This document shows positions 2 to 24,341 of a stretch of DNA of 24,341 bases, one piece after another (position 1 is the stretch's first letter; each line of letters opens with the position of its first letter). The DNA comes from a virus. Position numbers and translations under genes: made by a program. The stretch covers positions 1-24,341 of IMG/VR virus record IMGVR_UViG_3300025151_000295; one strand, written 5' to 3'. Under the pieces are notes generated by a model. The model saw nothing but the letters and a program-made list of their open reading frames with translations, made no database searches and was not told the origin of the DNA.

Positions 2-3000
2 AATGAAAGTTCTGTAACTCAGACCGCCGTCAACGACTCTTTCACAAACGGCAGCGCTTTGGCCCGACTTTTTACTGAAGATATCGGTTATGGTTTGCAG
101 TCAAACAGCATTGAGATCCCAGATTTAATTATAAGGGGGATTGAATTTACATCGACTGTAGACCTATCTAACACCAAGTTGAGCATAACATGCGCGGCTC
201 AAGGTAAGCATACCGATTCCCTAGATAACTTAGGCAGGCTGATAGGGTTTGGCGATAATACTAACGCGTCTCTATTCGAGTACGAGGGCGGTGATGCAGC
301 GGTAAAAACGTCACAAGGGGTGCAGACATACGTAATAGACACCTCTGCCACGGGGTATGAGATTGACACGTTTGGTGCAGGGTCGTTGAATTGGGCGGCT
401 GTGAAACATGTCATACACGGATGGAAACCTTTTTCATATTCTGGCCAATATGTTTATGTTGGTGCGCTGTATAATTTGGGCGTAATGGAGATGTTAGGCG
501 GTAGTACTACGTTTCCATGTTCGTTTGTTGACGCAGCGGCAGCAGTGTCGGCTGGTGCTTTAAATACAATATCGAATCAGATTGGACAATCCGGTTCACA
601 GTTTTTCTCGGTGCAAGATATCGCTATTGGTGACGGTGCGGATGACATTTACTGGAATTCTCAATATGAATCCATCGAGTTCCCGCCTGCTTATAATTAT
701 GCAAATGGCGTTGTACAGGTTCAAGCCGACGCCGGAGCATACGAGCTATCGATAAATGTGACGGCTGGTTCTACGGTTACCATGGATACAACAACCATAA
801 ATATGGGTAACTATCATAAATTCACGATAAAGGCGACAACAAGCACATCCGCGTCTTATAGCTTCGCTGGAGCTACAATTCTAAATGCTGACCCCACTTT
901 AAACGATATCGGCGCGGCAATTAGTAGCCTGACGTTTTCTGGCTGTAAAGAGATCGTTAAAAACAGTTGTGATTTAAGAGGTGGTGGATGTGTTTTAGAT
1001 GCTTGCGTGGATACGTATTGTGTCACTGTTACAACTCAAGCAGAGTTCGAGGACTTAAAAAACGTAAGTTTCACCAATAATAACTATTCGATACGGATCA
1101 CAGGGAACCACGGTGGAGCTACCTGGAGTTTATCAGGAGCTACTGTAAGCGGTGGTACAGGATCGTATGACATACGATATGAAGGTACAGGTACTTTAAC
1201 GGTAGAAGCGGATTCAGGGAGTGGGTGGACTCAAGTTAGAGCTGAAGCAACGGTTGGGACTCTGACAATATCAGCGCCTACCTTATCACTTACTGTTAAC
1301 TCTTCGGAAGCAAGCTCTGATATCAAGATCTTTGATACCAACACTCAGACGATTGAGGCAAGCACTACGGGAACAACTGTTAACACGACCGCTACAGGCA
1401 CGTATGACTGGACAGTACAAAAGGCTGGATTCTTACCGCAAAGAGGAACAGGTGTAGCATTAAGCGGCTCTAGCGTAACGGTAGACGTAACATTAGTTGC
1501 TGATCCTGTTTACTCATCAAGTCATGGGTTAACGTTTACGACTGATTACAGCTATAATGCGTCAACACGTGTAATGACAATCGTAGCGAATCAAGAAGGC
1601 CGAGACCTTTATTCTGCATTGATAGATGATTTTATCTCGGAAACCTCTTTGAGGAACTGCCCTTTTCCTTTAGTCGCGGTCGGTCCTGATCGGATAGATT
1701 TTGCGGCCGTTGGGTATTACAACACAGCTACTACCGTAGGAGCCACGATAGATAGCGGTGATATCCAATTTTGGAAAGGCGCAGGGATGGAGTGGGAGCA
1801 CGACACAACCGGCAATCCGACTAAAAAATACTATAGCATTAAATCTGCCAACACGTTACAAACTGGTTCAGTTGTTGGTTATACGCAGGTTAATAACGGC
1901 ACCCCTTCAGCGGCAACATTAGTTAGTGATAAGGTAAATGAGGTTATTCAGTTCTTTGAAGACACAAATGGGGACGGTACGCCAGACTACAACTATACCG
2001 GGCACCTACTATTTAAAGGCTTTAAGACTGGATATTATCAAGCAAGGTGGGATGTAATAAACGACTCGGGGGTGAGTACGTTAGAGCCATACGAGTACAC
2101 CATCAACCTGTTACAAGACGCTATAGCAGGGACAACGGGCGATCAGTCTATAACGATAACAACTCTAACAGATCATACGTCTAGTCCTAAAGTTGTTGGT
2201 AGCAAGAACTTCGATTATGAATTAGTAGACCCTGGAACTAATACGGCTGAGAACCTCTTATCTCAGTTTAACTATGATGTGTTTAATACGGTAAATACGT
2301 CAATCAGCGGGACTCTCTACACGTCTTATAAGGCGTTTGATCTACCTGATCTAATCATTGAGGCAGGCGCAAACTACGAAACAGAGCGGGGATATTTTGA
2401 GGGTGATGGAGCTGTTACGGATTTAAGCGGTGTTTATCTATCGAGATCAGCAGCAGATCATCCGAATATTTCTAGATTCCAATCTAACGACGGAACCTAC
2501 TATGTACCTGCGGTGGTATCTAATATCAATGTCTCAGGGATGCCAACGGCAGGCGCTAATATTCGTTTACAGATTCACAACGAAACAGCCAAGACAGCGA
2601 GTACGTGGGCGGCAACAACGGCTTATAGTCTTGGTGATAAGGTCTTAAGATCAACGGGATTAGGTACAGAGCAAACCGCCGGTTTATACATGGTCTGTAC
2701 AACAGCAGGTACGAGCAGTGGAAGTGAGCCTACATGGGATACAACGGTAGGCAATACAACGGCTGATGGTACGGTTACCTGGACGACATACGCAATACTA
2801 TTCTACGACGCTGACCCCGCTTCAGCGAGCTATGCAGACTCTTACACGGATGGTGAGGAGTTCATAGACGGCGACACATGGCGAGTAAGATTTGCGGAGA
2901 TGAATGGAGCTACGAGCTTTAAAACATATGAAAATACCGGCTTAGTAGGTTCAACAGGGTTTTCTGTTGTCGTTTCTGTTACCGCTGATTCTGTCTATGC

Positions 3001-3895
3001 TACAAATGCTATCGATGGATCAAGCACTACGGTAACTAATAAATTCACTGCTGATTTCACTAATAATGAAATAGACCTAGACACTAATACAGATTTCAAA
3101 GGCACCGAGACTTATGCTTATTATTGCTATGAGCTAACAGAGAGTAATGGAATGTACACGATTTGGGGCGCGATGACTGCTTTAGATGAATCTAATTATC
3201 GTAATGAGGTAAGCATATTTAGCATATTCCTTGACGAAACAGCAGGCTTTGTTAAACAGACAGATTCAGTCAGGCTGTTTAGAAGTGACGGCACGCGACC
3301 AGCGCGAGACCCAACCACCGGGGGTAATGGTATAGAGGTAAACTGGAGAAATCCTGTTTATGGCTATGATGCTGGGGGCGGTGGCTTCACTGCTTCAGAT
3401 AGAGCTACACTTGACGCAGCAGCTACACAAGCAAGCGTTAATACAATTGATTCTAATGTTGACGCTATTCTATTAGATACAGCAGATATGCAACCTAAAC
3501 TCGGTACTCCGGCTAGTGACATAAGCGCAGACATTGCAGCAGTCAAAGCAGAGACAGCTCTAATTGTAGCGGATACAAACGAGCTACAGGGAGACTGGGT
3601 AGACGGTGGTAGGTTGGATCTAATATTGGATGCAAGAGCTTCACAAAGCAGTGTAGACGGCTTAAACGACATATCAGCAGCAGATGTTAACGCACAATGT
3701 GATACAGCCATAAGCGATGCCTCATTGGCTACGGCTGCTAGTGTGGCTACGGTAGATTCTAATGTTGACGCGATAAAAGCTAAGACGGATCAATTGACGT
3801 TTACTAAGGCTAATGAATTAGATACTAATATCCAGTCTGTTAACGACGTTACCGTAACGGGTACAGGTGCAGACGGGGATGAGTGGGGAGCGTAA
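2..3895 (+). CDS. Giant fibre-like virion protein, 5'-truncated by window edge
   Basis: The frame is open from base 2, so the TTG at 59 is probably not the start; about 1297 C-terminal residues are visible. The protein is rich in Thr, Ser, Gly and Ala, with beta-type sequence throughout, typical of phage fibres or capsid appendages. Visible parts (numbered from base 2) are: a five-Cys stretch at 315-340; an Ig- or carboxypeptidase-regulatory-like segment near 425-500 containing TVQKAGFLPQRG; a DTNGDGTPD calcium-loop-like motif at 654-662; a WAATTAYSLGDKV...CTTAG...EPTW...DGTVTW module at about 868-930, which recurs in phage structural proteins; and a C-terminal tail with AETALIVADTNELQGD near 1183 and two SNVDAI repeats, a tail I recognise from phage fibre/capsid-associated proteins. 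The stop overlaps the next start (TAATG). The exact role (tail fibre, head fibre or adhesin) is inferred and no enzyme motif is seen. Confidence 0.75.
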   Translation, partial: NESSVTQTAVNDSFTNGSALARLFTEDIGYGLQSNSIEIPDLIIRGIEFTSTVDLSNTKLSITCAAQGKHTDSLDNLGRLIGFGDNTNASLFEYEGGDAAVKTSQGVQTYVIDTSATGYEIDTFGAGSLNWAAVKHVIHGWKPFSYSGQYVYVGALYNLGVMEMLGGSTTFPCSFVDAAAAVSAGALNTISNQIGQSGSQFFSVQDIAIGDGADDIYWNSQYESIEFPPAYNYANGVVQVQADAGAYELSINVTAGSTVTMDTTTINMGNYHKFTIKATTSTSASYSFAGATILNADPTLNDIGAAISSLTFSGCKEIVKNSCDLRGGGCVLDACVDTYCVTVTTQAEFEDLKNVSFTNNNYSIRITGNHGGATWSLSGATVSGGTGSYDIRYEGTGTLTVEADSGSGWTQVRAEATVGTLTISAPTLSLTVNSSEASSDIKIFDTNTQTIEASTTGTTVNTTATGTYDWTVQKAGFLPQRGTGVALSGSSVTVDVTLVADPVYSSSHGLTFTTDYSYNASTRVMTIVANQEGRDLYSALIDDFISETSLRNCPFPLVAVGPDRIDFAAVGYYNTATTVGATIDSGDIQFWKGAGMEWEHDTTGNPTKKYYSIKSANTLQTGSVVGYTQVNNGTPSAATLVSDKVNEVIQFFEDTNGDGTPDYNYTGHLLFKGFKTGYYQARWDVINDSGVSTLEPYEYTINLLQDAIAGTTGDQSITITTLTDHTSSPKVVGSKNFDYELVDPGTNTAENLLSQFNYDVFNTVNTSISGTLYTSYKAFDLPDLIIEAGANYETERGYFEGDGAVTDLSGVYLSRSAADHPNISRFQSNDGTYYVPAVVSNINVSGMPTAGANIRLQIHNETAKTASTWAATTAYSLGDKVLRSTGLGTEQTAGLYMVCTTAGTSSGSEPTWDTTVGNTTADGTVTWTTYAILFYDADPASASYADSYTDGEEFIDGDTWRVRFAEMNGATSFKTYENTGLVGSTGFSVVVSVTADSVYATNAIDGSSTTVTNKFTADFTNNEIDLDTNTDFKGTETYAYYCYELTESNGMYTIWGAMTALDESNYRNEVSIFSIFLDETAGFVKQTDSVRLFRSDGTRPARDPTTGGNGIEVNWRNPVYGYDAGGGGFTASDRATLDAAATQASVNTIDSNVDAILLDTADMQPKLGTPASDISADIAAVKAETALIVADTNELQGDWVDGGRLDLILDARASQSSVDGLNDISAADVNAQCDTAISDASLATAASVATVDSNVDAIKAKTDQLTFTKANELDTNIQSVNDVTVTGTGADGDEWGA
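3449..3771 (+). repeat. Paired 17-mer in fibre C-terminus
   Basis: GATTCTAATGTTGACGC occurs at 3449-3465 and again at 3755-3771, coding for two copies of the DSNVDAI segment in the fibre tail (first followed by LLDTADMQ, second by KAKTDQLT). This marks an internal duplication of a short coiled-coil-like unit about 306 bases apart, in register with the reading frame. Confidence 0.7.
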
Positions 3896-4311
3896 TGGCT
3901 AGTTCGTGGGGGTTAAGCTGGGGCAGTTCATGGGGTGATTCGTGGGGAGCCATATCAACAGAGGTATGGACTCAACAAACCAATGATTTATCGACTTGGA
4001 CTTTAGCAGCTAATGACTCAACGAGCTGGGTTAATCAGACTGTAGACGTGACAAGCTGGACAGTTGTCGCAAATGTCAATACAATGTGGGGTGTACAGAG
4101 CGTTGATTCAACTAGTTGGACTTTGCAAAGCAATGATTCAACAAGTTGGGTAGGGCAGGCTTTAAATAGCGATACGTGGACAGTACAGAGTGATAATGGT
4201 GAGGCTTGGTCAAATGCGTCAACAGATAATACAAGTTGGAGTGATCAAGCAGACGATGCTACTGGTTGGAGTCAGCAGTCTAATGATAACACTGCTTGGA
4301 TACTACAGTAG
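3895..4311 (+). CDS. Tryptophan-decapeptide repeat protein (138 aa), unknown function
   Basis: ATG at 3895 overlaps the fibre stop codon (TAATG), implying translational coupling; an in-frame GTG at 3883 is less likely. The protein has two repeat regions. First, SWG tetrapeptide-spaced repeats place Trp at residues 5, 9, 13 and 17. Second, Trp occurs at 25, 35, 45 and so on every ten residues to 135, twelve times without a miss, with rough consensus W-T-x-Q-S-x-D-x-T-S. No signal peptide, membrane segment or catalytic motif is visible. The fibre's own C-terminus ends in EWGA, which resembles the SWG units. By position it is probably a virion or appendage-associated protein, perhaps a short beta-solenoid or an accessory to the fibre, but this is inference. 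I do not recognise a named family. Confidence 0.8.
   Translation: MASSWGLSWGSSWGDSWGAISTEVWTQQTNDLSTWTLAANDSTSWVNQTVDVTSWTVVANVNTMWGVQSVDSTSWTLQSNDSTSWVGQALNSDTWTVQSDNGEAWSNASTDNTSWSDQADDATGWSQQSNDNTAWILQ
3967..4299 (+). repeat. 30-bp periodic repeat, one Trp codon per unit
   Basis: TGG codons sit at 3967, 3997, 4027, 4057, 4087, 4117, 4147, 4177, 4207, 4237, 4267 and 4297, exactly 30 bases apart. The DNA between them is only partly conserved, while the coded pattern (Trp, then Gln at +3 in most units, Asp at +6, Thr/Ser at +8/+9) is kept. That suggests an old internal duplication held by protein-level selection rather than a recent microsatellite expansion. A shorter 12-base period (TGG at 3907, 3919, 3931, 3943) precedes it. 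Confidence 0.9.
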
Positions 4312-4333: not shown

Positions 4334-4630
4334 ATGCCAGCAGGCAAGAAATATGGCGGTAGAGTAAAGGGGACGCCAAACAAAAAGACACAAGGCGTTA
4401 TCGATAAACTGGCTGAACTGAAGTGTGATCCGATCGAAGGCATGGCAAAGATAGCAGAACAAGCTATGTCTGAAGGTGATTTACCATTGGCTGGTAATAT
4501 GTATAAAGAGCTAGCGCAGTATGTTGCACCGAAACGAAAAGCTATGGAGATAAGCGGCGATAAAGATGCGCCGTTAGCTATTACTCAAGTAGAGAGGACT
4601 ATAGTTGATACTCAAACGAAAGGTAGCTAG
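4334..4630 (+). CDS. Terminase small subunit-like DNA-packaging protein
   Basis: The protein has 98 residues. The ATG at 4334 is chosen because GGAGG (4324-4328) lies 5 bases upstream; the in-frame TTG at 4322 would overlap that ribosome binding site. The N-terminus is basic, with GGRVKGTPNKKTQ (about residues 7-19), followed by a helical region and a YVAPKRKAMEI segment. This is a pattern I know from small phage proteins encoded directly before large terminases, commonly annotated as small terminase subunits or packaging-associated proteins. Small terminases recognise phage DNA and regulate the TerL motor. It is shorter than P22 gp3 (162 aa), so the DNA-recognition role is inferred mostly from gene order. 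It overlaps the TerL start by 26 bases. Confidence 0.65.
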   Translation: MPAGKKYGGRVKGTPNKKTQGVIDKLAELKCDPIEGMAKIAEQAMSEGDLPLAGNMYKELAQYVAPKRKAMEISGDKDAPLAITQVERTIVDTQTKGS

Positions 4631-5891
4631 GGTTTTTCAGCCTCTTTTGGATGATGCTCGTTACAAAGGAGCTCACGGCGGAAGGGGAAGCGGGAAAAGT
4701 CATTTCTTTGCTGAGCAGCTTATTGAAGACTCGTTGTGTGAGCGTGGACTATTAAGCGTATGCATACGGGAAGTACAAAAGAGCCTTAAGGAATCGGCCT
4801 ATCGTTTGTTAACAGGCAAGCTAAAGGAATTGAATCTAGGCGAGAAAGACGGCTTCAAGATTTGGAAGGATCGGATAGAGACACCCGGAGACGGTCAGAT
4901 CATATTTCAGGGTATGCAGGATCACACGGCGGAGAGTATTAAGTCTTTAGAAGGCTTTAAGAGAGCATGGGTTGAAGAGTCACAGACGTTATCAGCTCTT
5001 TCAATGCGCCTGTTAAGGCCAACGATTAGGGCTGAGGGATCACAGATATGGTTTAGCTGGAACCCGCGAAGAAAGAATGATCCTGTTGATGAGCTGTTGA
5101 GACAAGGAGAGCCGCCTACTAATTCGGTAGTTGTACAGGCTAACTGGTCTGATAACCCCTGGTTCCCGAGTGTGTTAGAGGCTGAACGAGTAGATTGTTA
5201 TCACCAGGATCCCGATCAGTACGGGCATATATGGGATGGTGATTACATAAGCGTTGCAGAAGGCGCTTATTACGCTAAGCACTTAGCATTAGCCAGGAAA
5301 GATGGAAGGGTAGGAAGGCTTAGAGAGGATCCTTTATTGCCTTTTAAACTGTTTACGGATATCGGAGGAACAGGGGCTAAAGCGGATGCATTCGCAATGT
5401 GGGCGGCTCAATTTGTCGGAAAAGAGACAAGAGCTTTGAATTATTACGAAGTTCAAGGCCAGCCGTTACAGCACCATTTGAATTGGATGCGAGAAAGCGG
5501 CTATACTAAAGCTAATACAAAGGTTTATCTTCCACATGATGGGAGCACAAACGATAGAGTTTATGACGTTTCGTACGAATCAGCGTTTAAGCAAGCAGGC
5601 TATCAGGTAGAAGTAGTACCAAACCAAGGCAAGGGTGCGGCATCAAAAAGGATCGAAGCAGGCAGAAGAGTATTTAGTAACTGCTGGTTTGATTCTGAGA
5701 GGTGTGAAGGTGGCTTAGAAGCTTTGGGCTGGTATCATGAGAAGAAAGACGAGGCAAGGAATATAGGATTAGGTCCAGAACACGACTGGTCCTCACATGG
5801 CTCTGATGCGTTCGGATTGATGGCGATTGTTAGAGAGAGACCTACGCCAAAGTGGGATAAGATTAAATACCAAAATCAGGGGATTGTATGA
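4605..5891 (+). CDS. terL: Terminase large subunit (TerL), Terminase_3-like
   Basis: This is the ATP-driven packaging motor and headful or site-cutting nuclease that docks on the portal. It has 428 residues. The N-terminal ATPase shows a Walker A motif GGRGSGKS (25-32, Lys31), a Walker B region with WVEES (Glu124/125) and the coupling motif WFSWNP at about 145-150. The C-terminal RNase H-like nuclease shows candidate metal-binding Asp residues at 252 (FTDIGG), 312 (YLPHDGS) and 401 (SHGSDAFG). The start is TTG at 4605, with AGAGAGG (4591-4597) 7 bases upstream; no better start lies before Walker A. It begins inside the preceding gene, and its stop overlaps the next start (ATGA). Length and motif order fit the Terminase_3/PBSX-type family. 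Confidence 0.95.
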   Translation: MILKRKVARVFQPLLDDARYKGAHGGRGSGKSHFFAEQLIEDSLCERGLLSVCIREVQKSLKESAYRLLTGKLKELNLGEKDGFKIWKDRIETPGDGQIIFQGMQDHTAESIKSLEGFKRAWVEESQTLSALSMRLLRPTIRAEGSQIWFSWNPRRKNDPVDELLRQGEPPTNSVVVQANWSDNPWFPSVLEAERVDCYHQDPDQYGHIWDGDYISVAEGAYYAKHLALARKDGRVGRLREDPLLPFKLFTDIGGTGAKADAFAMWAAQFVGKETRALNYYEVQGQPLQHHLNWMRESGYTKANTKVYLPHDGSTNDRVYDVSYESAFKQAGYQVEVVPNQGKGAASKRIEAGRRVFSNCWFDSERCEGGLEALGWYHEKKDEARNIGLGPEHDWSSHGSDAFGLMAIVRERPTPKWDKIKYQNQGIV

Positions 5892-6016
5892 GCATACGAC
5901 TAACAGTAGAGGTTAACAAACTTAAAGAGCAAGTGTTAGAGCTACAAAAGCAGGTAGCAGAGCTTAAAGAGCGAAAGAAACCAGGTCCCAAACCGAAGGC
6001 TGTTGTAAATGGCTAA
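5888..6016 (+). CDS. 42-residue coiled-coil microprotein between TerL and portal
   Basis: ATG at 5888 overlaps the TerL stop (ATGA), with AGGGGA (5878-5883) just upstream. The end overlaps the portal start by 8 bases. The 42-residue product has an unbroken heptad pattern, with hydrophobic residues at L5, V9, L12, V16, L19, V23 and L26 and charged residues between. A basic, proline-rich tail (KPGPKPK) follows. This predicts a short parallel coiled coil with a nucleic-acid- or protein-binding tail. Tight coupling on both sides and the regular heptad argue for a real gene. Function is unknown; a role in terminase-portal docking or portal assembly is only a positional guess. Confidence 0.7.
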   Translation: MSIRLTVEVNKLKEQVLELQKQVAELKERKKPGPKPKAVVNG

Positions 6017-8003
6017 AATGAAAGAGCATGAACTACTAGCGATAGTAGAACAAGCAAGAGATGACGCTGTAAAGAATCAGGGGAAGTTTGTAAGCGACTC
6101 TGAGGAGTTTCTACAGTATTACCTTGGTCATCCCCTTGGTAACGAGGTAGAGGGGCAATCAAGCGTTATCAGTACCGATTGTTCACAAGTAGTTGATAGT
6201 GACATGACTTCTCTTGCTAGAATGTTTCTCGGGCCTCAAGAGGTTATGGAGTTCACGCCTCAGATTGGTTCTGAAGCTGACGTAATTGAAGCAGAGCAGA
6301 AGACTAAGTACATAAACTATCTCATAAGAGGTCAACAGGACTCATTCAGGATTATTCACGGATGGCTTAAAGATGCTCTTATACAGAAGATTAGCGTATT
6401 AAAATACGAGTATTACGAAGAGGAGAAAGTAAAGGTTAAGGAGTTCGATAACTTATCTGATGATGAGCTCATCTTATTAACCGAAGACCTGAAGAACCTT
6501 GAAGACGAGTTTGAGATTGTAGGGCGTGACCGTGACGAAACCGGCAACTACATCAAGATCGAATTAAAGAGAACAGAGAAAGGTGTACGTTACTCTAAGA
6601 TACCTCTCGAGAACTTTGTCGTTTCTCGTAACGCTACATGTAAAGATGATGCCGAGATTGTCGGAGATATTACCTTAATCTCTAAAGGCGATCTCATAGG
6701 GATGGGTTACGACGAGGAGCTTGTTAAACGTTTGCCATCCAAAGAACACAGCGTTAAGGACTCTAATTTATCAGCTGTTAGATTCCATTCAGAGGGTGGT
6801 GAGGACATATCGGAAGACGTCAAACATTGGGCATCTGAAGAGGTAGAGGTTTCTGATCTTTATATCTTAGTTGACTATGACGGCGACGGATTAGTTGAAA
6901 GAAGACGTGTAATACTTGCTGGTAATGAGATCTTGGAGAATGAGCAATTGGACCACGTTCCATATGCTCTTTTGTCTGCTGATCTGATGCCTGATTCTCT
7001 TATTGGTAGGTCATTAGTAGAGATTACTAAAAAGACTCAAGACATTAAAACGGCAATGTATAGACAGATCCTTGATAACATGTATCGTGTAAATAGTGCG
7101 CGTGTTGTCGTTAACGATATGGATACAAACATTGATGACTTACTTGTTAACAGACCGAACGGAATTGTAAGAACTAACAACCCTACTCCTGCTAATGCTG
7201 TGGCTATGCTTCAAACTCCATACATTGGGGACAAAGCTTTACAAGTGGTTCAATACGTTGACTCAGTACGTCAACAAGACACAGGTGGGATCATAGCTAA
7301 CCAGGGTTTAGACTCTGACCAACTACATAACGAGACAGCAACGCGGTTCAAGGGCGTTGAGAGAGCCGCTACAGCCAAGGTAGAGCACATAGCCAGGGTG
7401 TTTGCTGAGACAGGCTTTAAAGAGCTATACGAAGGCATGGCGTGGCTTGTGTCGCACTACCACAAAAATAAGGTTGAGATCATCTATCAGGGCGAACAGA
7501 TGATGATTGATCCTAGGTTCTGGAAGTATGACCATAGCATACGGTCTAATGTTGGATTAGCCGCGAGTACGGACGAGGCTTTAACGTCAAACTTAGGCAA
7601 TATCCTGACAGCTCTATTGTCGTTTAAAGAGCAAGGTATGACTCTTGTTGACGAGAAGAAGATATTTAATACCATGGATAAGATCATTAAATCTATGGGG
7701 ATGCATTCTTCGCAAGAGTTTGTTAATGATCCTGAGAAACCTGAACAAGTCTTAATGGCTGAGAACGAACAACTGAAGATGATGGTTGCTCAGTTACAAC
7801 AACAAGTTCAATCTAATCCTATAGCTGAAGCTGAGATGATCCGAGCGCAGGCTAAACTATCTGAAGCAGAGAACAGGCAGCAGATAGAAGCGGCTAAGAT
7901 GCTACAGAATCAGGACCAGTTCGAGCAGCAGCTAGAATATGACTATACAAAACTAGAAGTTGACGCAGCTACAGACATAATAGGGAAAGGCGTAAGTGGA
8001 TAA
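6009..8003 (+). CDS. Portal protein, P22-like
   Basis: The portal is the dodecameric ring at the packaging vertex through which DNA enters and leaves. The protein has 664 residues, close to P22 gp1 (725). Supporting motifs are VDYDGDGLVERRR near residues 288-300, a segment conserved in P22-like portals, and the stem/crown core with IANQGLDSDQLHNETATRF followed by a long helix at about 435-480. The C-terminal 110 residues are Gln/Glu/Ala-rich and strongly helical, consistent with a P22-style barrel helix. The start is ATG at 6009 with GAAGG (5995-5999) upstream; an in-frame ATG at 6018 is possible. It overlaps both neighbours by 8 bases. Confidence 0.92.
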   Translation: MAKMKEHELLAIVEQARDDAVKNQGKFVSDSEEFLQYYLGHPLGNEVEGQSSVISTDCSQVVDSDMTSLARMFLGPQEVMEFTPQIGSEADVIEAEQKTKYINYLIRGQQDSFRIIHGWLKDALIQKISVLKYEYYEEEKVKVKEFDNLSDDELILLTEDLKNLEDEFEIVGRDRDETGNYIKIELKRTEKGVRYSKIPLENFVVSRNATCKDDAEIVGDITLISKGDLIGMGYDEELVKRLPSKEHSVKDSNLSAVRFHSEGGEDISEDVKHWASEEVEVSDLYILVDYDGDGLVERRRVILAGNEILENEQLDHVPYALLSADLMPDSLIGRSLVEITKKTQDIKTAMYRQILDNMYRVNSARVVVNDMDTNIDDLLVNRPNGIVRTNNPTPANAVAMLQTPYIGDKALQVVQYVDSVRQQDTGGIIANQGLDSDQLHNETATRFKGVERAATAKVEHIARVFAETGFKELYEGMAWLVSHYHKNKVEIIYQGEQMMIDPRFWKYDHSIRSNVGLAASTDEALTSNLGNILTALLSFKEQGMTLVDEKKIFNTMDKIIKSMGMHSSQEFVNDPEKPEQVLMAENEQLKMMVAQLQQQVQSNPIAEAEMIRAQAKLSEAENRQQIEAAKMLQNQDQFEQQLEYDYTKLEVDAATDIIGKGVSG

Positions 8004-17581: not shown

Positions 17582-18664
17582 ATGATAGATATACCGCACG
17601 CAATCAGAGCAATGCAGCAAGCAAATCAGGCTCAAGAGTTTAATCAGCTAAAGATGATGCAGGCTAGGCAGGCTTTCCCGATTCAACAGCAGCTACAACA
17701 GCTAAAGCTACAACAAGCTCAACAGTCTTTACCAATGCTGCAACAGCTACAACAGCTAAAAATGCAACAGGTTCAACAGAATCTAGCGATGGGAGAGCAG
17801 GAGCAGCAAGCACAACAAGCTCAAGCGCAAAGAGCTCAGGCGGTGATGCTTGGCAATCTAGCAGAGCAGGCGTTAAACATTGAGGATGAGGACGTAAGAA
17901 ACACCTTCATTCTAGGCGCAGCTCAAAAAGCGGGGGTGCCTTTAGACGACCCAAGTCAGGTTACTGATGACGATTTGCAACAGATGGTAGCGGTTAGGAA
18001 CGTTATACAGCCAGGCACAAGAGATTCCAAGTTTGGCCGAGCATTTCAGGCGGTTGACGATCAAGGAAATTTAGTTTGGGCTCAGGTTGACGACCAAGGA
18101 AGAAAGCGGGTTATAGAGGGTTTGCGCCCCCTTGATATACAGCAGCAGCGGCTAGACTTGAGAAGGGAGATTGCTACAGGCAAGGCAGAGAGGGAAGAGA
18201 AGAAGTTTGAAGCAAAAGAAAAAGAGGTGAGAGAAACAAAACAAGCAGACATGAACGCATTAACTAACACGCTCTCGCAAGTTGACGCGATTATTAATGA
18301 CCCCGACTTTAGCGGGGCTGTTGGCCTTATAGATCAATTTACAGCTAGAGCGGGCGCGGCTTTCGGTACTAAGGCTGGCGTAGTAAATAGAAGGGCTGGT
18401 CGCCTCCTTAATACATCTATAGTTAAGATAGCTAAGAGCTTAGGGGCCAACCCCACAGACCGAGATATGGTCATATTGAAAAATACTCAGCCAGACCTAA
18501 GCGACCAGCCAAAAGTATGGCAGGACTGGTATGAAAATGAATTAATTCCAGCGGTTAACGCAAGACTTAGCGCTGCCGGGCAGGATGAAATAAGGCCTAT
18601 TAGTCCTGAACAGAGTGAAGTCAGGCGAAGACGTTACAACCCACAAACGAGGCAATTTGAATAA
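17582..18664 (+). CDS. Putative DNA-ejection protein with Gln-rich helical repeats
   Basis: The protein has 360 residues. ATG is at 17582 after AAGGTGA. The N-terminus is a Gln/Leu/Met-rich helix containing three 18-residue repeats (residues 14-67). A globular helical region follows (about 75-130; NIEDEDVRNTFILGAAQKAG), then a beta-hairpin-like segment (GRAFQAVDDQGNLVWAQVDD), a charged coiled coil (about 195-230), and a helical C-terminal domain with LLNTSIVKIAKSLGANPTD and KVWQDWYENELIPAVNARL. This architecture is common to phage internal virion/injection proteins. It overlaps the next gene by a TAATG junction. The exact P22 counterpart (gp7, gp20 or gp14) cannot be assigned by eye. Confidence 0.72.
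   Translation: MIDIPHAIRAMQQANQAQEFNQLKMMQARQAFPIQQQLQQLKLQQAQQSLPMLQQLQQLKMQQVQQNLAMGEQEQQAQQAQAQRAQAVMLGNLAEQALNIEDEDVRNTFILGAAQKAGVPLDDPSQVTDDDLQQMVAVRNVIQPGTRDSKFGRAFQAVDDQGNLVWAQVDDQGRKRVIEGLRPLDIQQQRLDLRREIATGKAEREEKKFEAKEKEVRETKQADMNALTNTLSQVDAIINDPDFSGAVGLIDQFTARAGAAFGTKAGVVNRRAGRLLNTSIVKIAKSLGANPTDRDMVILKNTQPDLSDQPKVWQDWYENELIPAVNARLSAAGQDEIRPISPEQSEVRRRRYNPQTRQFE
17621..17782 (+). repeat. Three tandem 54-bp units (18 aa each)
   Basis: The units code for residues 14-31, 32-49 and 50-67 of the ejection protein, with common core (F/L)-x-Q-L-K-(M/L)-x-Q. Units 2 and 3 share the identical 17-mer CAGCTACAACAGCTAAA at 17690-17706 and 17744-17760, exactly 54 bases apart. Unit 1 is more diverged. 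Confidence 0.85.
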
Positions 18665-20814
18665 TGCCAACTATTGTTGAAGTGAACGGAGAAGAATTAG
18701 AGTTTCCTGACTCCATGAGTGATGAGGAAATAAAAGCCGTGTTGGATGAGCAGTTCTCTACTGGCCAGCCTGAGTTAACTGCTCAAGGTGGAGGCCCGTT
18801 AGGAGAGGTTCTAGGCGGTCTAGAAACTGCTGGAACTGTTGTAAGTTCTGCAATAGCTGAGCCTATAGCCGGGCTTGCGGGCTTAAGCTCTGGCGTTATA
18901 GACATTGCAACAGGGCGGCCGTTTCAAGGTGGTGACGTGGTTGAGATGGTGCGGGACGCTCTTACATATGATCCCCGAACACCGGAAGGTGAAAGGAATA
19001 TACAAAGAATAGGCCAATTTTTAGAGCCTGTAGCTGAAGCAATGGAAGCAGCAGAAGAAACAACCGGTGAGGTTGGGTTTGAGGCTGGCGGGCCGTTCGT
19101 TGGTGCTTTGGCTTCGGCTCTCCCCGCTTTAGGGTTAGAGCTTTTGGGCGTTGGCGCGCCTAAAGCAGCGGCTAAGATTGCAAAAAGCAGAGCGGGCGTT
19201 TTATCTGAAGAGGCAGGGAAGATATCAAAGCAAGCTGATGACATGGCGAAGTTAGCTAGAGCTGAAGATCTAGAAAGTGTCGTCGAACAGATCTCAAGGG
19301 CTGACATTGATGACATGGCCGAGATAGTAGATTTGGACCCGGCATTCATAAAAGCTTCGGATGAATTAGGCGTTGATGTTGAACCGCTTGCGTCCTTTGC
19401 CAGTAAGAATCCACAATTCAGAAGTATTGAACAGGCTTTATCAGCCATCCCAGGCTCTGAGCTTGATGCTCAAGGCAGGGCGTTCGTAGGTGCGGTGAGC
19501 AAAAAGGCTGATACTTTAATTGAAAGGTATGGTGGGACCCTTGATAAAGCCAATTTAAGCGAGAGATTTAGGCAGGAGACCTTTGCTACTATTGACCAAC
19601 TTTTTGAACAGGCTGATGAGCTATACAATAAGTTAGATAACGCCATACCTAAAACTACATCCGTCAATCCTACGCAAACTTTAGCGTTTATAAACAAAAA
19701 AGGGCTTGAGGGTAAGCTACCGCCACTGCTTGCGGAAATTAAAAAGGATCTAACCCCGGAAACTAAAAGAGTAGTAGGCGTTACTGGATTGACTACTGAT
19801 GTTCCAACTAAGCAGGCAACCTTTGGCAGGCTAGCCCAGTTAAGGCGCGATGTGGGCCAAGCTATACAAAAAGGAACGGGGCCATTCAAGGACGCTGAAA
19901 CAGGCTTATTGAAGGCCGTATATTCAAGGATGAGGACAGACCAAGATAATGTAGCTAAAGCTAGGAAGATATTTGACGTTTCAAAAGCTGCTGATGGTCT
20001 AGTGATTCAAAGGAAGATGCTAGAGGACTCCATGAAAAGGCTTTTGGGAAATAAGCTTTCCGGAACCTTAACCGTCAAGGGTGGCACCGAGATACGCAGG
20101 CTTGTTAAACAAGGCGACATACAAAGGTTCAAAGAGTTTGTTAACGACGTACCTGAAGCCTTTAGGCAGGAGGTTGTGGTATCTGCTTTGAACGATATTT
20201 TCAAAGGTCGCGGAGTAAACCAACAGGCTTTAAATGTAACTGAGTTTTCTAAATTAATGGATGACCTAGACAGGCAGCCTACGCTAAAAAACGCATTATA
20301 TAGCAACTTGCCGAGCGGTGCCGGTAGAGATCTTGATAACCTGCATAAGCTGGCGAAAGGCATAAGTGTAGCGCAACAGGACAAAGTCCGAACCGGGATA
20401 GTTACAACGCTTTTCGATGAACAAACCGGGTTGCTTAGGAAAATGATTGGCAAAGGCGCTCAAATGGCTGTAGGTGGCGCAGTAGCTAAAACTACAGGAT
20501 CTCCGTTGCTTGCTAGTGTTACTGCTGACTTCTTGAGTGCTAGGACGTCAAAATCCCAAGCCGTGGGAGATCTTTTAGCGTCTGACCAATTCAGAACCTT
20601 GATAACTGACTCGGTAAGATCGGGCGTTATTGAGGGTGGAAGAATAACGCGCAAGCTCAAGCAGGCAGAAAAGCTTATGGAGAAGAGCGAAAAATACAAG
20701 GCTTGGGCTGATACTTTATCAGAGAGTGAGAAAGCTCAACTTGCTAGCGTTGGCTTAATATCTTATTTACTTGATGAACAAGAGGTTGAAGAGAATGTCC
20801 TGGACTCCAATTAG
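18664..20814 (+). CDS. Large putative ejection/internal virion protein
   Basis: The protein has 716 residues and starts at a TAATG overlap with GAGG upstream. The N-terminus VEVNGEELEFPDSMSDEEIK (5-24) is a short motif I recognise at the start of many large phage internal virion proteins. A Gly/Ala/Pro-rich amphipathic region follows (about 40-175; EPIAGLAGLSSGVIDIATG, GGPFVGALASALPALGLELL), possibly able to insert into membrane. Then comes a long helical body (175-590) and a second hydrophobic Gly/Ala segment (about 595-630; GAQMAVGGAVAKTTGSPLLA). I see no lytic transglycosylase or peptidase motif. Position as the last and largest ejection gene before the tailspikes fits the gp16/gp20 role in forming a trans-envelope DNA channel. 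Its last 20 bases overlap the tailspike start. Confidence 0.75.
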   Translation: MPTIVEVNGEELEFPDSMSDEEIKAVLDEQFSTGQPELTAQGGGPLGEVLGGLETAGTVVSSAIAEPIAGLAGLSSGVIDIATGRPFQGGDVVEMVRDALTYDPRTPEGERNIQRIGQFLEPVAEAMEAAEETTGEVGFEAGGPFVGALASALPALGLELLGVGAPKAAAKIAKSRAGVLSEEAGKISKQADDMAKLARAEDLESVVEQISRADIDDMAEIVDLDPAFIKASDELGVDVEPLASFASKNPQFRSIEQALSAIPGSELDAQGRAFVGAVSKKADTLIERYGGTLDKANLSERFRQETFATIDQLFEQADELYNKLDNAIPKTTSVNPTQTLAFINKKGLEGKLPPLLAEIKKDLTPETKRVVGVTGLTTDVPTKQATFGRLAQLRRDVGQAIQKGTGPFKDAETGLLKAVYSRMRTDQDNVAKARKIFDVSKAADGLVIQRKMLEDSMKRLLGNKLSGTLTVKGGTEIRRLVKQGDIQRFKEFVNDVPEAFRQEVVVSALNDIFKGRGVNQQALNVTEFSKLMDDLDRQPTLKNALYSNLPSGAGRDLDNLHKLAKGISVAQQDKVRTGIVTTLFDEQTGLLRKMIGKGAQMAVGGAVAKTTGSPLLASVTADFLSARTSKSQAVGDLLASDQFRTLITDSVRSGVIEGGRITRKLKQAEKLMEKSEKYKAWADTLSESEKAQLASVGLISYLLDEQEVEENVLDSN

Positions 20815-23203
20815 TGGAACAGTACCGCAATACCAACAGAGCACTGGAGACCTTGCTAGTGCGTACTATTTAAAAGCCTACGCTGCGGGGACATCCACAG
20901 CTATAAACATGGCCACCGATTCCACTGGAGGCACCACGCTAGATAAAATCCAAATAAACTCTAGCGGTTATCCTGTAAATTCTAGCGGTGGTGTGATAAT
21001 CCCTCACGTATCTCAAGCGTATAAACTAGTCCTATATAAAAACTCAACCGACGCTGACAACAACACAACAGCCAATGCTGATTGGGTTATTGATAGCCTA
21101 TCTCAGAGTGCAGCAGCGGTATCTAGTCAGAATGTTGAGATTGAGTATCAAAACGGTTCAGCAGCTACTGCTAACAAGTTCACCCTTGCTAGACTTGTAT
21201 ATACGGTTGGTGTGAATAATCTAGCGATCTTTGAAAACGGACAAAGATTAAGATTAGGCTCAAGCTACGACTACACAGAGACCTCTAGCACTGAAGTAAC
21301 CTTAACTTATACCCCATTGGATAACGCTGTATATACGTTCGTGCAAGGTGAAACGACCACATCTACAGTATCAGACGCTTCAGCAGTAACTTACACCCCC
21401 TCCGGATCTGGAGCTGTTGCTACTAATGTTCAGGCTAAGTTGCGGGAGAGTGTTTCGGTAAAGGATTTTGGTGCGGTTGGTGATGGGGTTACTGATGATA
21501 GTAGCGCGATAAATTCGGCGCTATCAGCATCTAAAGTTGTGAGGATTCCCCAGAATTTTTCGTGCTTGATATCGTCCAATATAGACGTGCCTTCATCTGG
21601 CTGCTCAATAGTTGGTGAAGGATTTACAAGTAAAATAATATTCTCAGGGAATAACCGCAGGATCAATACTAATTACGGCGACTTTGCCATGATGAATTTA
21701 GAAGTTGACGGGCAGAAGCCTACCGTGGGGTATGAGACAACGGACAATACAGACTATGGATGCCTAGTTGGAGATTCTGTAGCCGGCACTATCTCAGGCT
21801 TTCTTTTTGATAGGGTGCGGTTTAAGGATATCGGGCTTGATGGAATCAGGCTAGAAAATTGTAGTAATGTTACAACAACAGAAACATGTGAATTTATTAA
21901 TTGCAGAAGGTGGGGAGTAACTATCATTCCTGACGCTTACGCGATGGATAACGTAAGCATAAAAGGGTATTTTGATTCAGATTACGGTGGAGGACCTGTA
22001 GGCAAGGAGTACCCACTAGGCGCTGTGGATACCGAGCCAAATGCGGCACATCCTTCGCTAGACATGACTAACATTAGATATTCGGACATTCATTCAAACA
22101 CCGGCGAGATAGCTATACTAGACAAAGAATTTGATACTCTCGACTCGACCATGACTAACGTTAGTGTCACTAATGGCGTACTGAGGGTTTATAACAATAG
22201 GTTTAATATTAAGGGCGCAGATGTTAGCGGGTCATCTGGTTACTTTAAGGCAGATATTACAGACTCAATAGCTACTGAGATTAATCACGTAGATGTAACC
22301 TTTACAAATACCGGCAGGTCAGAGGTTAGGGACTCAACAAACAACAGGTTGAATCTGATAGCGGCTGATTATGTTGACGAGTCAGCGCTAGGTATAGGTG
22401 TTTCAAGCTCTGGAACTGGAACTTCATCGGGCAAGGTTTTAACAGACGTTGATGGGGAGTCTGTTTATTTAAGACAAATGAGCCTAACCACCGGAACAGG
22501 AACATACCTATTCCCACAAACCCTTAACGCGACAATATCCACTAACGACCAAGTTATACTTTATTTAGAGGTGGAAAGGACGGATAGCAATATCGTGACC
22601 GCTCCATTCTTCTTTGTGAGCATTGGGTCTGCTGGAAATATCGTTTCAACAACAAAGTTACTTAGCACTGGCGTTAATAAGATGTGCATTGCTTTGCAGT
22701 CTGGCGCTACCGTCGCCTCATGCCCAATAAACTTTGGCCTAAGCGGTACGGTAAATGCTCAGGTAGATTGCTTAATTAGAAAATGCTTTCTTTATGTTAA
22801 CCCCGATAAGTTTAATAATGAAATGCTTGATGTTTCATCTGTTGAAGTGACGGGATCATACATTGGGACAGCAACAGGAATAAGCGGTTCGCCGTCGGGG
22901 TCTATCAGTTATACGAGGAAAGGCAACATTGTTACACTAACCATTCCTTCGGGGGTTTTCACAGGCACCAGCACTTCAACCGCTTTCACAATCACAGGGG
23001 CACCAATCATTATAAGACCTACAGCAAGTAGGGTTGGTTTAGGGCGGGGGGTTGATAACTCAGCAGGACTCACTAATCCTATTAGTATGGAGATGACCAC
23101 AGCGGGGACTCTTACAATATCCTCGGACATGGCCGGTGGAACCTGGACCGCATCCGGGACAAAGGCCGTATCGAACACAACTATTACTTACAATGTGGAG
23201 TAA
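20795..23203 (+). CDS. Tailspike 1 with pectate-lyase-type beta-helix
   Basis: The protein has 802 residues from ATG at 20795, chosen for AGAGG (20781-20785) 9 bases upstream; in-frame TTG/ATG codons at 20771/20774 lack a site. Domains are: an N-terminal particle-binding region (1-105) with TPISGTVPQYQQSTGDLAS and YYLKAYAAGTSTAIN, typical of podovirus spikes; a second beta domain (113-190; VGVNNLAIFENGQRL); the pectate-lyase superfamily entry motif VSVKDFGAVGDGVTDD at about 218-233; a right-handed beta-helix to about 560; and a C-terminal beta domain (about 685-802; SISYTRKGNIVTLTIPSG), which probably trimerises or binds receptor. It likely recognises or depolymerises surface polysaccharide. 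Catalytic residues cannot be assigned by eye. Confidence 0.9.
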   Translation: MSWTPISGTVPQYQQSTGDLASAYYLKAYAAGTSTAINMATDSTGGTTLDKIQINSSGYPVNSSGGVIIPHVSQAYKLVLYKNSTDADNNTTANADWVIDSLSQSAAAVSSQNVEIEYQNGSAATANKFTLARLVYTVGVNNLAIFENGQRLRLGSSYDYTETSSTEVTLTYTPLDNAVYTFVQGETTTSTVSDASAVTYTPSGSGAVATNVQAKLRESVSVKDFGAVGDGVTDDSSAINSALSASKVVRIPQNFSCLISSNIDVPSSGCSIVGEGFTSKIIFSGNNRRINTNYGDFAMMNLEVDGQKPTVGYETTDNTDYGCLVGDSVAGTISGFLFDRVRFKDIGLDGIRLENCSNVTTTETCEFINCRRWGVTIIPDAYAMDNVSIKGYFDSDYGGGPVGKEYPLGAVDTEPNAAHPSLDMTNIRYSDIHSNTGEIAILDKEFDTLDSTMTNVSVTNGVLRVYNNRFNIKGADVSGSSGYFKADITDSIATEINHVDVTFTNTGRSEVRDSTNNRLNLIAADYVDESALGIGVSSSGTGTSSGKVLTDVDGESVYLRQMSLTTGTGTYLFPQTLNATISTNDQVILYLEVERTDSNIVTAPFFFVSIGSAGNIVSTTKLLSTGVNKMCIALQSGATVASCPINFGLSGTVNAQVDCLIRKCFLYVNPDKFNNEMLDVSSVEVTGSYIGTATGISGSPSGSISYTRKGNIVTLTIPSGVFTGTSTSTAFTITGAPIIIRPTASRVGLGRGVDNSAGLTNPISMEMTTAGTLTISSDMAGGTWTASGTKAVSNTTITYNVE

Positions 23204-23215
23204 GAGGAAACCAAA

Positions 23216-24341
23216 ATGGCAAGAACACGATTTTCAGGCGATCAATCAAACCTACAGATAGTTTCTGTTAAAGATTACGGGGCTGATGGTGATGGGGTTA
23301 CGGATGATGCGAGTGCGATACAGGCGGCTATTGATGCGGTGAGTACAGCCGGCGGGGGAGCTGTTAATTTTGATCCTCAAAAAACCTATACTATAGGCTC
23401 TGCCATTGAACCAAAAAGTAATGTATATCTTGTTTCAGAAGGTGGCGTGTCAACAATTAAGATACTTAGCGCGGCAGCCCATGCGTTTTTATCTAAAACC
23501 TCTGGCACGTTAGATAACGTAAAAATTAGGAATATTTCATTTGATGGTTCTATAAACTATCCCGCTAATTCTCAAACTTACCAGTTTGACGCGGGCTTAC
23601 TGTTGAACAAGGCTATATCCATAAGCGTAACGACAACTAACCTCGAAGTTAGCGGGTGCTATTTTTACCAATGCACGAACGGCGGCATAAGAATCAACGC
23701 GCAAAGCTGCGACAACATAAAGATAAAGGATAACCGATTCAATGAAGGGAGCTATGCGTCAAAATGCATTTCAGTGAAGACAAGCGGTTCACCAACCGAC
23801 GCTCAACGGAATAAAAACATCATAGTTAGTGGAAACACCATCAATACTAATGGACCGCAAATATGGTATGATCCCTCGAAAGACGATTACGTCTCAAGTG
23901 TTGACGCAATAGAACTAGATACATGCAGAAACTCAACCGTTTATGGTAATACTGTTTTCCAGTCTGGCGGGAACGGAATAAGGGTAGAGAAATGCAAGGG
24001 TGTATCGGTCGTTTCAAATACAATTTTGGAAGCCGGGTCAAACGGTATAACATTTTATAATGACTGTTTTGATTGCTCTTGCATTGGTAACACTATTATC
24101 AATTGGGGGCGAACACCACAAGCGTACGGAATAAGGGATTACAGCTCTACAAATGTAGTAGCAAGAGAATATCCGCACGCGACAAACGCCCCATTGCCCG
24201 CAGACCCAACGGCTTCGACGTGGTTCGACACATGGCCCTATTCGACAGATTCTAGCGTTGTTAATGCCGCGAATATAATTACTTATAGCGCATCCGATTA
24301 CTGGAATGGTACAAGCGGTATATTGCCGTTCCGAGGCTATG
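23216..24341 (+). CDS. Tailspike 2 with pectate-lyase-type beta-helix, cut by right edge
   Basis: ATG at 23216 follows GAGGA (23204-23208) by 7 bases. The frame stays open to the last base, giving 375 complete codons, so the stop lies outside the window. After only about 15 residues it enters the pectate-lyase-fold motif VSVKDYGADGDGVTDD, followed by AIQAAIDAV and GGGAVNFDP, then repeated beta-helix coils (NIKIKDNRFNEG, NSTVYGNTVFQSGGNGIRVE, GVSVVSNTILEAGSNGI). Many Asn/Gly turns and a few Cys are present. It lacks the N-terminal particle-binding domain seen in tailspike 1, so it may attach through another spike or by its short N-terminus. Substrate is unknown. Confidence 0.88.
   Translation, partial: MARTRFSGDQSNLQIVSVKDYGADGDGVTDDASAIQAAIDAVSTAGGGAVNFDPQKTYTIGSAIEPKSNVYLVSEGGVSTIKILSAAAHAFLSKTSGTLDNVKIRNISFDGSINYPANSQTYQFDAGLLLNKAISISVTTTNLEVSGCYFYQCTNGGIRINAQSCDNIKIKDNRFNEGSYASKCISVKTSGSPTDAQRNKNIIVSGNTINTNGPQIWYDPSKDDYVSSVDAIELDTCRNSTVYGNTVFQSGGNGIRVEKCKGVSVVSNTILEAGSNGITFYNDCFDCSCIGNTIINWGRTPQAYGIRDYSSTNVVAREYPHATNAPLPADPTASTWFDTWPYSTDSSVVNAANIITYSASDYWNGTSGILPFRGY

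Follow-up and report, generated by a model that had tools for sequence, protein, structure and literature searches.

What purpose is served by a protein with a tryptophan at exactly every tenth residue, encoded directly behind a long structural gene of a phage? The gene for this protein (W12) is carried by a 24.3 kb IMG/VR contig, the whole of which was analysed and is referred to as the window, and which is of a short-tailed phage type with an SU10-type portal and capsid (Pfam). The relevant features are as follows.

2–3895, + strand: long fibre/horn-like structural protein, 1297 aa visible, cut by the contig start; coiled-coil-like C-terminal part; homologues in relatives
3839–3892, + strand: tail motif VNDVTVTGTGADGDEWGA at the C-terminus, which is proposed to dock with the SWG head; a like tail lies ahead of that head in 28/28 readable cases
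3895–4311, + strand: W12 protein, 138 aa; orthologues in the same slot; dN/dS of 0.21 (L253/L319)
3895–3948, + strand: SWG head, four Trp at period 4 (residues 5, 9, 13, 17)
3967–4308, + strand: decapeptide array W-T/S-x-Q-A/S-D/N-S/D/N-x-T/S-x, twelve copies
4334–4630, + strand: probable small terminase (TerS), from its position before TerL, synteny and weak PHROG matches of unknown function
4605–5891, + strand: large terminase subunit (TerL; Pfam Terminase_3, 1.8e-27)
6009–8003, + strand: SU10-type portal protein (Pfam SU10_portal, 6e-143)

The order long fibre-like protein, W12, TerS, TerL and SU10-type portal was found, where complete, in ten loci besides the window. Elsewhere in the window, two adjacent genes, probably for tailspikes and matching pectate-lyase-like beta-helices (Pfam PF12708), occupied positions 20771–23203 and 23216–24340, the second being cut by the contig end, and a Gln/Leu-rich nine-base tandem repeat (LQQLKLQQAQQ) at 17582–17850 lay at the start of a 360 aa ORF.

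Translation of 3895–4311 confirmed the pattern described in a sequence-only reading of the same DNA, namely Trp at exact ten-residue spacing twelve times after four Trp at period four. The product has 16 Trp, of which four are residues 5, 9, 13 and 17 and twelve run from residue 25 to residue 135 in steps of ten; the array TGG codons run from 3967 to 4297 at one per 30 nt (n = 12), and the array stops three residues past the last Trp. When the protein was shuffled 200,000 times, the longest ten-residue Trp chain obtained was 7, and the chance that 12 body Trp placed at random would form one arithmetic series was ~1e-15. The composition was very polar and lacked Lys, Arg, His, Cys, Phe, Tyr and Pro. 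Slippage of the DNA was excluded as the source of the array, because TRF detected no tandem DNA repeat at the ORF, identity among the window decapeptides outside Trp was 32%, nine different codons were used for Ser/Thr, and the third codon position was the least conserved across decapeptides; together with the retention of the spacing in relatives, this upheld the earlier proposal of a structural rule. The W12 start overlaps the upstream stop by one base (TAATG) and is preceded by GGGGAG. A programmed frameshift from the fibre ORF into the W12 frame was considered and rejected, there being no slippery heptamer ahead of the stop.

Relatives were sought by scanning viral contigs for TGG every 30 bases, and matches were kept only if the Trp were isolated and the repeat identity was low; the 12-copy scan was able to detect 13 or more copies too. 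Most raw matches were simple repeats or lay in other frames (WLWLW, WENGTW, collagen-like) and were discarded. Nine independent relatives were recovered from uncultured phages, with SWG heads in L156, L253, L319 and L488 and other heads in L083, L408, L447, L465 and L412/L456. Met1 and the twelve Trp were the only invariant columns when 11 proteins, including that of the window, were aligned, and the twelve Trp were in register in every relative, with almost nothing else shared. Loss of the spacing in homologues, which the sequence-only reading had named as one observation that would refute it, was not seen: ten residues separated the Trp in 11/11 aligned proteins, bar one nine-residue unit in L412/L456, which nevertheless has twelve Trp in total. 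Each member of the fibre-TerS slot had exactly 12 copies, and one to three residues followed the last Trp in all family members. Family position preferences (Trp = 0) were Q at +3 (60% of units), D/N at +5 (73%) and T/S at +8 (57%), such that the previously noted Q at +3 held for the family, whereas the D previously noted at +6 is where most D falls in the window itself and is shifted to +5 (D/N) over the family. Twelve copies also ended an unrelated 1140 aa protein (L397).

Comparison of L253 with L319 gave a dN/dS of 0.21, and therefore the W12 protein is translated and constrained. The same value, together with the occurrence of all four third bases in head Gly codons, the mixed Ser/Thr codons and the presence of the SWG head in other gene settings and other phages, makes it barely credible that the array is a DNA-level feature with an incidental reading frame, such as a packaging or recombination site, as its position directly before TerS in the W12 phage group might suggest. 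Searches of W12 returned no Pfam or PHROG family match and no relevant PDB match, no clear family member was present among the matches listed from a TGG-period scan of genome contigs, and no isolated, annotated phage carrying a W12 gene was found. A blast match to Pseudomonas phage Amjad_SA was to a pentapeptide-repeat protein, matched by period only, and a PDB match to RDM3/KTF1 (8hyj_W, 4e-8) was compositional; both were set aside. Judged from its sequence and that of its relatives, W12 is a real, selected, unnamed phage module. Other periodic proteins were also observed, including pentapeptide runs (TWKDG/TWENG/IWENG) with Trp every five residues in 20–50 copies on viral contigs L081, L082, L110, L117, L018, L026, L101 and L115, and more than 20 repeats of the decapeptide DPYWSTLLAS on a Heimdallarchaeota contig (L548, 3–2783).

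An NTWT motif forms C-terminal arrays in uncultured-phage proteins, mostly of 200–330 residues. Among 116 such arrays, copies numbered four in 36, six in 75 and five in none, and a tree built without the arrays required at least 11 switches between four and six copies (15 by parsimony). Because there were four or six copies and never five, with 11–15 switches, two decapeptides (20 aa, two Trp) appear to form one structural unit. A strict 20-residue period ran ahead of the array in 112/115 proteins. Odd/even alternation within arrays was weak, with a pooled p of 0.023 in 12-copy members, and was absent in the six-copy family. The initial idea of one Trp per coil was therefore right as to a structural repeat but has to be amended as to its size, as copy numbers of 4, 6 and 12, and never 5 in C-terminal arrays, point to two decapeptides per unit. 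The window array has the features of these NT-W-T arrays, being polar, with Trp every ten residues and an even number of copies (12, against a minimum of four). Two array genes lie in tail-fibre clusters, one in Venkman EXVC282S beside a gene annotated tail collar/side tail fibre and one in MW202481, one gene ahead of a gp38-type adhesin.

AlphaFold2 gave no usable fold from either the W12 alignment (mean pLDDT 40) or the six-copy family (mean pLDDT 41). Low pLDDT and the very polar composition would be expected if W12 were a disordered multivalent tether, with regularly spaced Trp serving as sticky points along a low-complexity chain of polar and acidic character, comparable to the WG/GW decapeptides in plant RDM3/KTF1, and the sole PDB sequence match was indeed to the decapeptide W repeats of RDM3. 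We consider such a tether improbable, because unit length was constant in eleven proteins save one residue in one pair, copy number was fixed at 12, and the preferences at +3 and +5 represent more constraint than a disordered linker needs.

Many small phage proteins whose bodies are unrelated open with the sequence SWGxSWGxSWGxSWG; L156 and L214, for example, have the head MASSWGLSWGNSWGNSWGQISTD in common and then diverge completely. Four aromatics at period four were present in 29/29 genuine SWG heads inspected, and the window and 28 others combined four period-4 aromatics with an upstream VNxxxVxGxGxxxxxWGP tail. The upstream ORF abutting the head ended VN/VT-xxx-(V/I)-x-G-x-G-xxxxx-W in 28/28 readable cases; a head-directed scan had supplied most of these pairs, and the tail pattern was defined once they had been viewed. 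The background of this pattern was 1% (loose) or 0.15% (strict) of all ORFs in the loci. Conversely, 31/36 strict tails had an SWG head within 60 bases and 2/5 exceptions had one slightly further on, although this direction of the pairing is weaker because the loci were mostly head-selected. A search for the tail alone in 754 cellular genomes gave a single match, with a deviant tail and no SWG head. The bacterial genome locus L839 (1024–1780) has a deviant tail, GEGIKTNRWRGSP, followed by an ORF, VASYDRDSFSTDAYDEDAHWF, that overlaps and contains four aromatics at intervals; this may be another class of head and tail.

W12 proteins without an SWG head carried other aromatic-Gly heads (MKYFRLNYWGLNYWGANYFGE, MGYYASNCYKSNYYAAKYYGR, MIxSYYGRLxF), mostly of four aromatic units at period five, and the fibres upstream of them had different ends. 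In MW202621 the chain has two steps, as a fibre ending NRTAVTLDLT is followed by an adapter of 88 aa, which has YFG/YYG/YWG as its head and GDTWGPE as its tail, and then by an overlapping SWG protein; the annotated start of the gene at 4451–4897 (L837, MW202621.1), at 4484, is too late, and the SWG head is recovered when translation is taken from an upstream ATG that overlaps the stop of the preceding gene. Syn5 gp55 and its MW202577 homologue had no tail, and the proteins next to them had no head. From these patterns we infer that the SWG head and the upstream tail are a docking pair, while the pairing could instead reflect two neighbouring genes inherited as one cassette, with no contact needed. 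Among other proteins of this type, L146 and L004–L006 had SWG-type heads followed by W-N/T-G-S-A-W repeats with two Trp per 13 residues, and those of L145, L216, L226, L241, L245, L200 and L002 ended in an acidic stretch and a Leu run (EELLLLL), with nothing else in common.

A conserved head joined to unrelated bodies, as in L156 and L214, is also the arrangement of gp38 adhesins (PMC6851490), and arrays occur near adhesin genes. W12 might accordingly be a receptor- or polysaccharide-binding adhesin, in which exposed decapeptide Trp would stack on sugar rings and the body would be swapped for host range while the head kept the attachment. This is unlikely in our view: an exposed site should diversify, and many SWG bodies, unlike adhesins, are short and end in an E/D-rich and then a Leu-rich stretch. 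The Trp fit a core better than a variable site, because they never vary across otherwise unrelated sequences.

That SWG-type small proteins follow fibre genes, as the first reading suggested, was borne out for the class, with 28 genuine cases having a readable upstream gene; the upstream gene of the W12 locus may not encode a tail fibre, since parts of it match Syn5 gp53/gp54. The long protein of the window was homologous to the fibre proteins of L253, L319, L488, L412, L465 and L447. The L488 homologue matched gp53 of cyanophage Syn5 (31%, 1.5e-10, partial coverage) and, weakly, gp54 (E 0.006), with L002 as a bridge to the gp54 C-terminus, and the window protein itself matched the Syn5-gp54-like L002 protein at 3e-11 and, over aa 863–943, the 'head decoration' family phrog_20658 at 1e-10. 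Raytcheva et al. in 2014 reportedly identified Syn5 gp53 and gp54 as horn components. Syn5 has a horn opposite its tail, plus knob proteins (PMC10575957). Because the upstream protein matches gp53/gp54, the appendage may, on present sequence evidence, be a horn on the head and not a fibre of the tail.

W12 would then be a structural cap, without a role in host recognition, on a Syn5-like horn or another head appendage near the capsid. Beyond the partial homology and the phrog_20658 match, this is favoured by the confirmed presence in Syn5 of a horn and of knob proteins (PMC10575957), by the SWG genes of L002, L146 and L226, which follow gp55 homologues, by the Syn5 gene order (53-54-55-56-57-58-59-terminase), which resembles fibre-W12-TerS-TerL, and by MW202621 and PCA1 relatives, which adjoin capsid genes. 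However, one part only of the upstream protein matches, and NT-W array proteins are located in tail-fibre clusters. We rate the horn cap a serious contender, somewhat short of an even chance.

Overall, W12 is likely part of a virion appendage. The specific model that we favour, in which W12 is a coupled-translated component with its SWG head docked on the tail of a fibre or horn and its body made of six 20-residue beta units, seems about as probable as its negation. Under this model, W12 would be made by stop/start-coupled translation right behind the main appendage protein, and its head, with four Trp-Gly units, would attach to the VNxxxVxGxGxxxxPWGP C-terminal tail, by analogy with the attachment of phage S16 gp38 to the gp37 fibre tip via three tryptophans. 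The body behind the head would be exchangeable between proteins. Its twelve decapeptides would pair into six beta units of 20 residues, each holding two stacked Trp on the inside, and would give a stiff, short cap or tip of constant size, presumably at the end of the appendage, where it might contact the host or a polymer.

A broader and more tentative proposal, which we would sooner expect to fail than to hold, is a docking code: in two successive, translationally coupled appendage proteins, the class of C-terminal tail on the first would determine which class of aromatic-glycine head the second carries. Of the two pairings compared, one joins SWGx four times to PWGP tails, and the other joins period-5 units of the form [YF][YFW]G to DRxxATVDxxGxR tails. 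One body family would then be a previously undescribed Trp-laddered beta structure, its length quantised in 20-residue steps, with six in this slot. If true, this would provide a sequence-level rule for spotting stacked phage-appendage components in metagenomes, in which nearly all genes of this small kind lack annotation; it would also supply two short peptides ready for use in modular assembly. With its strict, countable Trp, the array also offers a well-defined test of a fold that neither sequence nor AlphaFold2 as run here resolved, and a way to ask directly why certain protein repeats come only in fixed or even numbers.

Among known systems, the gp38 adhesin at the tip of the T-even-type long tail fibre of Salmonella phage S16, which docks on the gp37 trimer by three Trp (PMC6851490), is like W12 in being a separate protein behind a fibre gene, in its repeated-Trp attachment and in joining a conserved attachment part to an exchangeable specificity part (PMC6851490); the W12 gene likewise lies directly downstream of a long fibre-like ORF, which it overlaps at TAATG. 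In contrast to the SWGx tetrapeptide head and Trp decapeptide body of W12, gp38 relies on a bundle of N-terminal helices, each bearing a single Trp, together with a polyglycine sandwich. The translated W12 body had no Gly-rich motifs of the kind that, as glycine-rich motifs (GRMs) with hypervariable segments, mark gp38, and W12 matched no gp38 or adhesin family in PHROG or Pfam, nor any relevant PDB entry. RTX nonapeptide beta-rolls and pentapeptide-repeat (Rfr) solenoids similarly have short fixed-length repeats without indels and 18–20 residues per coil, but W12 lacks the GGxGxDxUx and A(D/N)Lxx motifs, Trp is its sole invariant residue, and neither A(D/N)LxX repeats (PF00805-like) nor any Pfam match was found in it. 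By the features tested, W12 is not a member of the gp38, RTX or pentapeptide families.

Syn5 gp53-gp55 resemble the locus in the gp53-/gp54-like stretches of the upstream protein, in the position of some SWG genes after gp55 homologues and in a similar place before the terminase; homology to gp53/gp54 was confined to the upstream protein and was of partial coverage. They differ in that gp55 has no PWGP tail, gp56 has no SWG head, and gp53-gp56 have no W decapeptides. The NT-W-T tails of fibre-cluster proteins in marine phages (Venkman gp51 and the MW202481 'serine-rich adhesin') share the same 10-residue Trp repeat, have no indels and end 1–4 residues past the last Trp, but number 4 or 6 copies, are fused to the end of beta-like repeats of 20 residues, and lack an SWG head. 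W12 probably works like a fibre-tip or horn-tip add-on, in which the appendage component is of a known kind and the repeat, with a possible docking rule, is previously undescribed.
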